DNA of 20,900 bases from a virus. Positions 12,107 through 20,863 of this stretch are shown in pieces. The stretch covers positions 1 through 20,900 of IMG/VR virus record IMGVR_UViG_3300035698_008573; one strand, given 5' to 3'. A program made the translations under genes and the position numbers. Numbering within the stretch: the stretch's first letter is position 1; every line of letters begins with the position of its first letter. The notes beneath the pieces were generated by a model, which was not told where the DNA came from, did not search any database, and saw only the letters and a program-made list of their open reading frames with translations.

Positions 12107-12140
12107 AAATAAAGGGGTGTTTAAACGCACCCCTTTATTT
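12107..12140 (+). terminator. perfect 13-bp stem-loop, probably bidirectional terminator
   Basis: AAATAAAGGGGTG (12107-12119) pairs exactly with CACCCCTTTATTT (12128-12140) around an 8-nt loop TTTAAACG. The GC core flanked by A and T runs gives a T-rich 3' side on both strands. It sits directly after the scaffold-like gene and 11 nt before the next ATG, so read-through must be partial, or a promoter is hidden nearby. Confidence 0.75.
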
Positions 12141-15322: not shown

Positions 15323-15339
15323 TCAGCAACTTAGAGAAG

Positions 15340-15359
15340 CGTTTAAACATCTTTAAACG
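15340..15359 (+). promoter_or_regulatory. 5'-end hairpin of the coat mRNA
   Basis: CGTTTAAA-catc-TTTAAACG is a perfect 8-bp stem with a four-base loop, about 10 nt after the expected RNA start. Hairpins at the very 5' end protect bacterial mRNAs from RNase E/pyrophosphatase entry, so this would fit a long-lived coat message. AT pairs make it fairly weak. Confidence 0.45.
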
Positions 15360-15409
15360 TTGGAAAATAGTAAAGCTAATTTCCTGAAGAGTTTTTTAAA
15401 ATAAACTAC

Positions 15410-16730: not shown

Positions 16731-16772
16731 AGTTCAAGCTTCTTCTTAAAAAAGGAAGCTTGAACTTTTTTT
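16731..16772 (+). terminator. classical Rho-independent terminator after the coat gene
   Basis: AGTTCAAGCTTC (16731-16742) and GAAGCTTGAACT (16755-16766) make a perfect 12-bp stem with a 12-nt loop, followed by six further T (16767-16772). It ends the coat transcript 19 nt after the stop. Confidence 0.9.
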
Positions 16773-16821: not shown

Positions 16822-17106
16822 ATGCCAAAAATTTATAATAGAACAACAGGTAAAAAAGTAGTTGCAGACAAATTCCAAGTTCAGCAAATGCTTAATTCTG
16901 GAGCTTACCAGAAAAAAGAACCTTCAAAAGATGATTTAAAAGCAAATAAAGAAGCTGATGAAAAATCTGGAGCAGATGCGAAAGAAGCAAAAGCTAAAAA
17001 GAAATCTGAAAAGGCGGCAAAAAATAAAAGCCAAACAGAAGGCGAAAAACCTGCTGCAAAGAAAGGTTCAGTAAAGAAGAAAGCTAAGACTGAAGAAGAA
17101 AAGTAA
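16822..17106 (+). CDS. small head protein with Lys/Ala-rich tail, 94 aa
   Basis: ATG 16822 has CAGGAG as SD. The N-terminal 30 residues (PKIYNRTTGKKVVAD then QQMLNSGAYQKKE) match a small phage family beginning M-x-K-I-Y-N-R-x-T-G-K-x-V and ending in S-G-x-Y, often placed after the coat gene. The remaining 60 residues are nearly all Lys, Ala, Glu, Gly and Ser (KEAKAKKKSEKAAKNKS, AAKKGSVKKKAKTEEEK), like histone H1 tails, so binding to packaged DNA or to capsid is plausible. Role unproven. Confidence 0.65.
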   Translation: MPKIYNRTTGKKVVADKFQVQQMLNSGAYQKKEPSKDDLKANKEADEKSGADAKEAKAKKKSEKAAKNKSQTEGEKPAAKKGSVKKKAKTEEEK

Positions 17107-17109
17107 AAA

Positions 17110-17119
17110 CGTTTAAACG
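17110..17119. promoter_or_regulatory. 10-bp palindrome CGTTTAAACG in the gap before the connector gene
   Basis: The palindrome lies 4 nt after the stop of the preceding gene, with further partial symmetry around it (AAAA...CTTTT). GTTTAAACG also occurs at 12119-12127 and, as GTTTAAAC, in the coat leader at 15341-15348. Only one other copy was seen (about 2313, inside a gene). Confidence 0.3.
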
Positions 17120-17169
17120 CTTTTAAAGTTGAAGGTGGTTCAGCAATTTAAACTAGAGGATTTTATAAC

Positions 17170-18830: not shown

Positions 18831-20006
18831 ATGAGTATTGGAACAGCTAACAGAACATCACTTTCTTTTATTAAGGAAGTTACAGCAGGCACAACACCTG
18901 CTGCCCCTGCTTTACAACTTTTACGTTTTACAAGTGAAACGCTAAACAGTTCAAACACAACTTCACAATCAGAAGAAATTGATGATGATCGTGGAGTTGC
19001 TGATTTAATTATTACTGATCAAAGTAATGCAGGTGATATTACTTGTGAAATGTCTGGAACTTCTTTTGATTCTTTTCTTGAATCAGTTTTAGCTTCTGAT
19101 GCTACATGGTCTGCTGAAGCTATGGCAGAAACAACTATTTCAGCAGATGCAACTGGATTTCTTGATTCAGGAAATGGTTTTGTAACAGAAGGTTTTGAAG
19201 TTGGGCAATTTATAGAAGTTTCAGGTTTTGTTGGAACAACAATTAACAGAATTTATCGCGCTGTTACTGTTGCTGCTGGAGAAATCACAACTTTTCCTGC
19301 ACCTGCAACAACTGAAGCTGCTGGAGCATCGGTAACAATAGATGGTTCAACTATTAAATCAGGAAAAACTGATCACTCTTATTCTGTACAGAAAAAGCAT
19401 GGTGATATTGCTACACCTCTTTATCAAAACTTTAGAGGGATTCGCATTAACACAATGAATTTAGATTTAAATATCGGTTCAATTGTTAAAATTGCTTTTG
19501 GTCTAAATGGAATGACTGTTGAAAACACAACAACAGCTATTGCAGGTCAAACTGAAGTTGCAAAAACTATTAGTGAACTAATGAATGCTGCAAGTAATGT
19601 TTCAAACATTTCTGCAAGTAATGGCTCAACAGTAACAACGGCAATTAAATTTACCAAGTTAACTTTGAACTATAACAATAACCATAGGGAACAAAAAGCA
19701 ATTGGAACCCTTGGGGCTTTTGATGTAAAACTTGGTTCAATAAATGCAACCGTGAACATTAACCCTTATTTTGAAGATAAAGAATTGTTAGACGCTTTCC
19801 TAGCCTCCGATAGTTTTGTTCTTTCTTGGCAAATGACTTCACCGGATGGCTACACTTATGTTTTTAGCTTGCCTAGAGTGAAGTTTACAAATCAGTCTTT
19901 AAATGCAGGTGCAAAAGATACTGATATGATTATTCAATCTGATGTTTTGGGATTGTTTGAATCAACACAAGGTGTAACTATGAGAATTGATCGCTTTGTT
20001 CCCTAA
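18831..20006 (+). CDS. major tail tube protein (Phage_tube_2-like), 391 aa
   Basis: Hexamer rings of this protein stack to form the non-contractile tail. ATG 18831 follows AAGAGGTT. The start (NRTSLSFIKEVTAGTTPAAP) and QLLRFTSETLNSSNTT...ID, then DDRGVADLIITDQSNAGDI and FDSFLESVL, match the Phage_tube_2 family pattern (NRTxLxYxxExTxGTTP, LRxTxESL, S-x-E-I-x-x-D-R-x-V-x-D). The middle (DATGFLDSGNGFVTEGFEVGQFIEVSGF) looks like an inserted Ig-like or barrel domain. The last strands (FSLPRVKFTNQSLNAGAKDTD) are typical too. No sheath gene follows, so the tail is siphovirus-like. Confidence 0.85.
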   Translation: MSIGTANRTSLSFIKEVTAGTTPAAPALQLLRFTSETLNSSNTTSQSEEIDDDRGVADLIITDQSNAGDITCEMSGTSFDSFLESVLASDATWSAEAMAETTISADATGFLDSGNGFVTEGFEVGQFIEVSGFVGTTINRIYRAVTVAAGEITTFPAPATTEAAGASVTIDGSTIKSGKTDHSYSVQKKHGDIATPLYQNFRGIRINTMNLDLNIGSIVKIAFGLNGMTVENTTTAIAGQTEVAKTISELMNAASNVSNISASNGSTVTTAIKFTKLTLNYNNNHREQKAIGTLGAFDVKLGSINATVNINPYFEDKELLDAFLASDSFVLSWQMTSPDGYTYVFSLPRVKFTNQSLNAGAKDTDMIIQSDVLGLFESTQGVTMRIDRFVP

Positions 20007-20037: not shown

Positions 20038-20142
20038 TTTTGGGGGAACAGCAAAAAATAAAGTTTATTATGCCTGATGGTGAACTTTAGCTGTTCCCCC
20101 AAATTCAAACATCAGGCACAACAAAAAATATTAATCAGGTGA
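20038..20142 (+). ncRNA. structured leader candidate with pseudoknot-capable loop
   Basis: TTTGGGGGAACAGC (20039-20052) pairs exactly with GCTGTTCCCCCAAA (20090-20103). Above it, after a six-A bulge, TAAAGTT (20059-20065) pairs with AACTTTA (20083-20089), leaving a 17-nt loop with TGCCTGATG (20071-20079). This nonamer is perfectly complementary to CATCAGGCA (20110-20118) and, over 6 Watson-Crick plus 2 wobble pairs, to the SD segment ATCAGGTG (20134-20141) of the next gene. No U-tract follows the stem, so it is not a normal terminator. A translation switch or T4 gene 32-like leader knot for the tail chaperone gene is suggested. Confidence 0.5.
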
Positions 20143-20147
20143 TTATT

Positions 20148-20597
20148 ATGGAATTGCAAAACGTAAAGTTAGATTTAAATGCTTGTGAAGATGGAATTTG
20201 GTTTGATTATGGTGATGATGCTGAAGTAAGAATTGCAGCTTGGGGCAATAAAGAACATGCAGCATTTTTAACAAAGATTTTAAAAACTTATGGAAAGCGT
20301 TTAAATAAACTTTCTGAAGTTGAACAACGTGAAATAATGGCAGGTCAATGGCCTCATATAGTTACAGGATTAAAAGGCTTTACTGATGAAGGTGAAGAAG
20401 TTCCTTACACTCCACAATTGATAATTGATCTAAATAAAAATCCTCAATTTGATAAATTCTTTAAAGACTGTATGAAACTCTCAAAAGATACAGAGCATTT
20501 TACAGTTGAGAGTATTAAAGAAGTGGAAAAGATCTTAGCTTCATCATCGAATGGTTCTATAGATGGGGTTCAACAGTTGGAGAACTTGAAAAGCTAA
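20148..20597 (+). CDS. tail assembly chaperone, gpG-like frame, 149 aa
   Basis: ATG 20148 has AGGTGA eight bases upstream; a GTG at 20139 in frame lies within that SD. The sequence (MELQNVKLDLNACEDGIWFDYGDDAEVRIAAWGNKEHAAFL with the conserved W-F-x-Y, A-E-x-x-I and A-x-x-x-x-x-N-x-x splits) resembles the chaperone that coats the tape measure protein during tail building. It lies between tail tube gene and tape measure gene, as in lambda G. The end is acidic/Ser-rich. The -1 frame is open under its last 79 nt and continues to 20863, see the extension entry. Confidence 0.7.
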   Translation: MELQNVKLDLNACEDGIWFDYGDDAEVRIAAWGNKEHAAFLTKILKTYGKRLNKLSEVEQREIMAGQWPHIVTGLKGFTDEGEEVPYTPQLIIDLNKNPQFDKFFKDCMKLSKDTEHFTVESIKEVEKILASSSNGSIDGVQQLENLKS

Positions 20598-20863
20598 GTG
20601 AAGCAACAGGAAAAATTCCGAAAGCTTTAAAAAGTAAACCTGAAATTCCTGAAGGCTTGGCTTCCTATATACGGGCCTTTAGGATTTTAAATAGAAGGAG
20701 AACAGCAGACAAAGAAAAACAGGAATTGGAACCTTTCACACTTTCACAACTAATAGAAGTTTCAAAAGTGATTGGTGAAAATGATCAACTTGGGTTCATA
20801 GAAATTATGCTTAATGTTGATGATCATTTTATTAGGCTAACGAAAGAAGATAGGAGCATTTAG
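20519..20863 (+). CDS. gpT-like extension of the tail chaperone, reached by -1 frameshift
   Basis: The -1 frame opens after TAA 20516-20518 and runs to TAG 20861-20863 without any ATG or GTG until a TTG at 20657 that has no SD. Its sequence reads as protein (VGELEKLSEATGKIPKALK, PEIPEGLASYIRAFRILN, TLSQLIEVSKVIGENDQ), in the place of the lambda GT extension. The overlap with the upstream gene is 20519-20597. Candidate slip sites are GGAAAAG (20525-20531, A-site AAG re-pairs as AAA) and AAAAGC near the stop (20589-20594); neither is an ideal X-XXY-YYZ heptamer. The coordinates show the open stretch; the true product would begin at 20148. Confidence 0.6.
   Translation, partial: RSGKDLSFIIEWFYRWGSTVGELEKLSEATGKIPKALKSKPEIPEGLASYIRAFRILNRRRTADKEKQELEPFTLSQLIEVSKVIGENDQLGFIEIMLNVDDHFIRLTKEDRSI

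Follow-up and report, generated by a model that had tools for sequence, protein, structure and literature searches.

The E. coli rpsO (S15) translational operator is a pseudoknot that overlaps the initiation region. It is mentioned in PMC3014915, which also describes the gene 32 leader pseudoknot of T4, a structure with one pairing partner, placed 67 nt before the start codon, from which gp32 binding nucleates. Pseudoknots in the leaders of the plasmid genes repZ (IncI-alpha ColIb-P9) and repA (IncL/M) act as activators of translation and are governed by antisense RNA (PMC8383071; Asano and Mizobuchi 1998, as cited in PMC10724649).

We compare with these systems a conserved phage RNA element located between the gene for the major tail (tube) protein and that for the tail assembly chaperone. 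Tail length and assembly call for hundreds of tube subunits and little chaperone, and the known control at the chaperone is a ribosomal frameshift within its gene; to our knowledge, the setting of the tube-to-chaperone step has been little studied. Comparative sequence evidence suggests that the gap encodes a cis-acting RNA leader in which the choice of pairing partner tunes chaperone initiation, a reading to which we assign a probability of about 0.55. The element probably sets the amount of chaperone made, and its presence in cultured Caulobacter, Ruegeria, Dinoroseobacter and Sphingobium phages makes this step testable.

By analogy, the mechanism would resemble that of the T4 gene 32 pseudoknot and, even more, that of the plasmid repZ/repA pseudoknots. 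Like the gene 32 leaders of T4, T2 and RB69, the leader studied here is a phage mRNA leader with a putative hairpin-type pseudoknot upstream of the ribosome-binding site (RBS), indicated by loop/tail complementarity with covariation, and in the window an A/U-rich RBS region. Unlike them, it has two or three pairing partners adjoining or on the RBS, and the downstream gene encodes a tail assembly chaperone, not a single-strand-binding protein. With repZ and repA it shares an upstream hairpin whose loop is predicted to pair near a downstream RBS, after a translated frame and just upstream of the Shine-Dalgarno sequence (SD), but in the phage leader the loop also matches the SD itself or a copy 5' of the hairpin. 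The rpsO operator shares a pseudoknot over the initiation region and differs in its ribosomal-protein ligand and unrelated sequence. Intrinsic terminators after the major tail genes of related phages occupy the same position and likely serve the same purpose of lowering expression 3' of the tube gene, whereas the element lacks a U-tract and has a conserved loop with copies. The place before a tail gene and the competing copies set the element apart from these pseudoknots.

The window analysed is a whole IMG/VR virus record of 20.9 kb. It carries a siphophage head-tail module with large terminase, portal, major head protein, tail completion, tail terminator, tube protein and chaperone genes. 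The parts of the locus are as follows.

18831 to 20006, + strand: major tail (tube) protein gene, the upstream partner (PHROG 290, E 4e-64; Pfam Phage_tube_2, E 1.2e-32)
20039 to 20052, + strand: lower stem S1a, 5' strand (sequence; compensatory changes in relatives)
20053 to 20058, + strand: six-A bulge on the 5' side, a possible hinge (sequence, relatives)
20059 to 20065, + strand: upper stem S1b, 5' strand (sequence, fold)
20066 to 20082, + strand: apical loop, with GCCTGA at 20072-20077 (invariant in the window clade)
20083 to 20089, + strand: upper stem S1b, 3' strand (sequence, fold)
20090 to 20103, + strand: lower stem S1a, 3' strand (sequence, relatives)
20104 to 20109, + strand: short A/U linker (5-10 nt in relatives)
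20110 to 20118, + strand: pairing target 1, the decoy or pre-SD copy CATCAGGCA (9 bp with the loop)
20134 to 20141, + strand: pairing target 2, AUCAGGUG, overlapping the chaperone SD (sequence, SD comparison, relatives)
20148 to 20597, + strand: tail assembly chaperone gene, ATG at 20148 (PHROG 313, E 2e-7; alignment of six homologues)

The gap measures 141 nt up to the chaperone ATG. A first-pass annotation made from the letters alone had placed a hairpin here, with a loop complementary to a decoy and to the SD, and reading of the sequence confirmed the coordinates and the complementarity. S1a is a perfect 14-bp stem (20039-20052 with 20090-20103) and S1b a 7-bp stem (20059-20065 with 20083-20089). 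The pairing segment TGCCTGATG at 20071-20079 in the apical loop can form nine Watson-Crick pairs with the decoy, which begins seven nucleotides past the stem end, and six Watson-Crick plus two G-U pairs with ATCAGGTG at 20134-20141, which contains the SD for the start at ATG 20148. This SD also includes an in-frame GTG, at 20139.

The region folds at -42.9 kcal/mol against -24.5 kcal/mol in dinucleotide shuffles (z -5.6, 0/200). By itself, the loop/decoy match in the window is only moderately improbable by chance (p about 0.02 in a strict test that shuffled the 3' tail and considered only the apical loop given by RNAfold). The annotation had called such matches unlikely by chance; the window alone falls short of proving this, and the matter was settled by conservation in relatives. 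Weak A-U and G-U pairs in the apical loop would cost about 8 kcal/mol to open, set against about -16 kcal/mol for loop:decoy and -10.3 kcal/mol for loop:SD (pseudoknot penalty not included). Loop:decoy pairing thus pays for apical opening clearly and loop:SD pairing only barely, so that the decoy state should dominate in the window and leave the SD free. Two relatives (L100 and L101) have an SD match stronger than the decoy match, so the set-point seems variable, as that of a tunable element would be. The first-pass annotation had described the pseudoknot as strained; a short linker together with a stem of about one helical turn is sterically possible, and in the window clade a bulge or side hairpin may let the upper stem fold back and ease the geometry.

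Relatives were gathered by tube-protein searches of IMG/VR and phage records, and their tube-chaperone gaps were then extracted. The same architecture occurs in the same gap of six further distinct relatives (L100, L101, L110, L002, L018 and L258); L102 is a near-twin of L101, and the gap of L003 is identical to that of L002. Tube proteins in this window clade are 46-61% identical over their full length and 41-60% over the C-terminal part. The lower stem starts near UUUGG, UUUGA or UUUAG, and the window, L100, L101 and L018 have an extra 5'-side segment of about 6-7 nt, in place of which L002, L110 and L258 have a side hairpin. Then come upper stem, GCCTGA loop, short linker, UCAGGC or a one-base variant, spacer and SD; the SDs contain AGG, and their flanking letters match the loop.

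We trimmed the anchored alignments around the loop ourselves (A5 and A10), which favours the stem counts given here and below. In the window clade S1a is 96% paired, with six of eight pairs changed on both sides while the stem sequences share little; the loop:decoy helix is 97.6% and the loop:SD helix 88% paired, compared with 17-46% for the whole structure in slid controls. L258 has decoy UCAGGU and SD UCAGGC, a C/U swap that is reversed in the window. The outlier L092 has loop UCGUUG with matching copies CAACG and CAACGA, the latter at the SD. Across an eight-locus set that includes this outlier, 6/8 loci have a pair of distinct 3' targets, each 5 bp or longer (shuffle mean 0.21, maximum 2 in 200 shuffles), and 7/8 have at least one target of 6 bp (0.63 expected). 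A per-locus shuffle test with automatic hairpin choice gave p 0.004-0.2 where the correct hairpin was taken; the wrong one was taken in several loci (L110, L002, L008, L157, L158, L162), and set-wise tests were used instead. Measured by energy, other SDs of the same contig match the loop as strongly in 0/14 cases for L101, 0/18 for L018, 1/7 for L100 and 3/27 for the window. In L110 and L002 the SD pairs only weakly with the loop and does not stand out from other SDs of the contig.

A second form of the element lies in the same gap at about 40 loci, with loop GTCGGG and CCCGAC before the SD. Its members are Nanhaivirus relatives (R5C, R26L, Pan1 and IMG/VR loci) and large alphaproteobacterial phages (DSS3P8, RcXuper, RpAliso, MD18, Cp1R7A-A1, Lacusarx, XM05, Bajun, Bambus, CcrColossus and CcrMagneto). 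The stem is 8-14 bp long and the loop is usually followed by ACC; a linker of 6-10 nt comes next, and CCCGAC stands a few nucleotides 5' of the SD. In an anchored alignment of 24 elements, covariation extends to every one of the ten stem pairs (score 0.70; 0.17 after shuffling), and the loop helix is 99% paired. Automatic detection yielded 42 elements; 33 of them have a 3' match of 6 bp or more where 6.2 would be expected, a count that none of 300 shuffles reached. When loops were exchanged between clades, the number of 6-bp matches fell to zero.

In this clade a further copy of the loop's complement usually stands 5' of the hairpin. We tabulated 37 elements having one, chosen by eye with every string verified in the sequence: the 5' copy matches the loop over all six pairs in 36; the 3' copy is a full match in 23, and in the others it contains a wobble or mismatch. 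Loop and copies change together: L028 has GTTGGG with CCCAAC, four loci of the Magneto type, including CcrMagneto, have ATCGGG (AUCGGG) with CCCGAT (CCCGAU) at both copies, and L215 has ACGGGG with CCCCGT at the 5' copy and CCCCGA at the 3' copy. The annotation had proposed, for the leader of a tail chaperone gene, a pseudoknot between loop and tail and a further loop target at the SD, and compensatory changes among relatives, found in the stems as well as in the loop and its targets, support this. Base-pairing of the loop with its targets is strongly supported by the comparisons as a whole.

Such covariation amounts to roughly five independent loop/copy changes, a small number because the loop core is nearly fixed within clades. 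A protein could also underlie this fixity. If the tube protein or the chaperone bound the loop and the CCCGA/UCAGG repeats, repression could be autogenous as for T4 gp32; the near-invariant loops of each clade beside freely diverging stems would fit such an operator, as would the repeats along the leader, which recall gene 32 (PMC3014915). The co-changes of loop and copy nonetheless indicate base pairing and not only protein reading of single strands, and we regard an operator of this kind as quite unlikely.

The proposed leader would work by partner choice. A strong hairpin would display a loop able to pair with alternative partners: pairing with the copy just 5' of the RBS would form a pseudoknot that leaves the SD free, and in the window clade pairing with the SD itself would mask it. 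In the GTCGGG clade the candidate partners are the copy 5' of the hairpin, the copy just before the SD and, often, a copy between SD and AUG. Many GTCGGG elements do carry CCCGA between SD and AUG, so that this clade also has a target on the ribosome-binding site. The choice of partner most likely tunes initiation such that chaperone is made as a small fraction of tube protein. From the sequence comparisons we infer that the pairings form and control translation, and likewise the active state and the trigger, candidates for the latter being ribosomes on the tube gene, a bound phage protein, or equilibrium only.

The pre-SD copy keeps a fixed position, ending 10-29 nt 5' of the AUG in most elements. 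This placement, with a hairpin loop facing a segment 5' of the SD and downstream of a translated frame, is the geometry of plasmid repZ/repA and would also suit a pseudoknot that favours initiation, perhaps linked to the exit of ribosomes from the tube gene. Purely activating pairing would, however, leave unexplained why the loop also matches the SD in the window clade or the SD-AUG spacer in many GTCGGG elements, and we consider it unlikely.

Nine GTCGGG elements have long linkers in the tube-chaperone gap (L129, L111, L113, L037, L116, L120, L123, L072 and L119). All nine contain promoter-like boxes (TTGnnn-N17/18-TAnnnT) between the hairpin and the pre-SD CCCGA copy, compared with about 1% in shuffles. 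Two kinds of chaperone message, one carrying the hairpin and one lacking it, may therefore occur side by side in these phages. These boxes, together with one long-linker hairpin that scans as terminator-like, could mean that the tube mRNA ends with the hairpin, whose loop would then pair in trans with the leader of a separate chaperone transcript. We think this improbable: short-linker elements, the window's included, are too short to hold a promoter, and the window hairpin lacks a U-tract and is not among the listed terminators.

An intrinsic terminator would need such a tract; in the window the stem end at 20103 is followed by UUCAAACAUC, without a U-tract, and the hairpin is absent from 15 terminator-like window sites. 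U-tract terminators do stand at this spot in several relatives (L024, L047, L061, L104), which could suggest a hairpin that does no more than stabilise or terminate the tube-gene mRNA, its loop matches being incidental. Such a hairpin is very improbable given that the window lacks the tract and that the loop matches exceed shuffles 5- to 30-fold and co-vary. Hairpin-bearing relatives have compensatory changes; many other related phages lack the element and have an ordinary terminator or no gap, and lambda has a 15-nt gap and no element. The occurrence of the element, a U-tract terminator or nothing at the same place is consistent with several solutions to one problem, making less chaperone than tube protein. 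In the preferred reading, partner choice in the leader would be one of them.

A frameshift stimulator acting on the tube gene was rejected. Such stimulators sit 5-9 nt from the slip site, and the stem starts 33 nt past the stop codon. A self-cleaving ribozyme was rejected on the lack of any Rfam ribozyme match, and other window hairpins with loop/tail matches are unsupported, being A/T-rich 6-mers or in coding sequence. Rfam 15 at its gathering cut-off gave no match in the window or in 19 relatives; a permissive scan gave only matches far below the cut-off in the window and none in CcrColossus. No DNA similarity of known phages to the window was found, chaperone-based and genome-contig searches yielded no new element, and no description of the element was found in the open-licence papers searched.

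Within 13 genomes, an element pattern not designed for the long linker of R5C or the variants of Cp1R7A-A1 and CcrColossus picks out the tail gap in 10; the remaining hits resemble background, and no second hairpin of the element type was recognised among them by eye. A candidate second copy in Bambus (191592) was rejected, its fold being no better than shuffles. Between the two clades, tube proteins share about 34% identity and the RNAs have only their plan in common, consistent both with shared ancestry and with convergence. The element spans isolates with genomes of about 72 to 348 kb plus the fragmentary window clade. We tentatively suggest, at slightly less than even odds, a widespread, uncatalogued class of phage RNA switch whose loop competes for two or three complement copies flanking or covering the chaperone RBS, kept by pairing and not by sequence across very distant phages, and fixing the tube:chaperone ratio.

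Several minor features accompany these loci. Perfect palindromes lie just 5' of the hairpin in large-phage and Nanhaivirus gaps (e.g., L159, L160, L162, L009 and L123); they differ yet remain palindromic (CACCGGTG, CACGCGTG, CAGCGCTG, CTCTGCGCAGAG, GATTGCGCGCGCAATC), which suggests a site for a dimeric protein or an RNA dimer contact. At two loci (L213 and L212) a reading frame that contains CxxC pairs and looks like an HNH homing endonuclease interrupts the leader just 3' of the hairpin, and CCCGAC copies are absent near that hairpin.

Elsewhere in the window, a strong U-tract terminator at 16731-16766 lies directly 3' of the major head protein gene; the tube-gene hairpin has no such tract. 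An open frame at 20519-20863 overlaps the end of the chaperone gene in a different frame and is probably the 'T' part of a G/GT programmed frameshift, a type annotated in the CcrColossus and CcrMagneto records. Three intergenic hairpins or palindromes (12107-12140, 15338-15361 and 17104-17125) are centred on GTTTAAAC, of which the window holds four copies against 0.7 expected. TTTAAA follows GTTTAAAC hairpins near the next start at about 12146 and 17151, and the motif is possibly a phage regulatory one.
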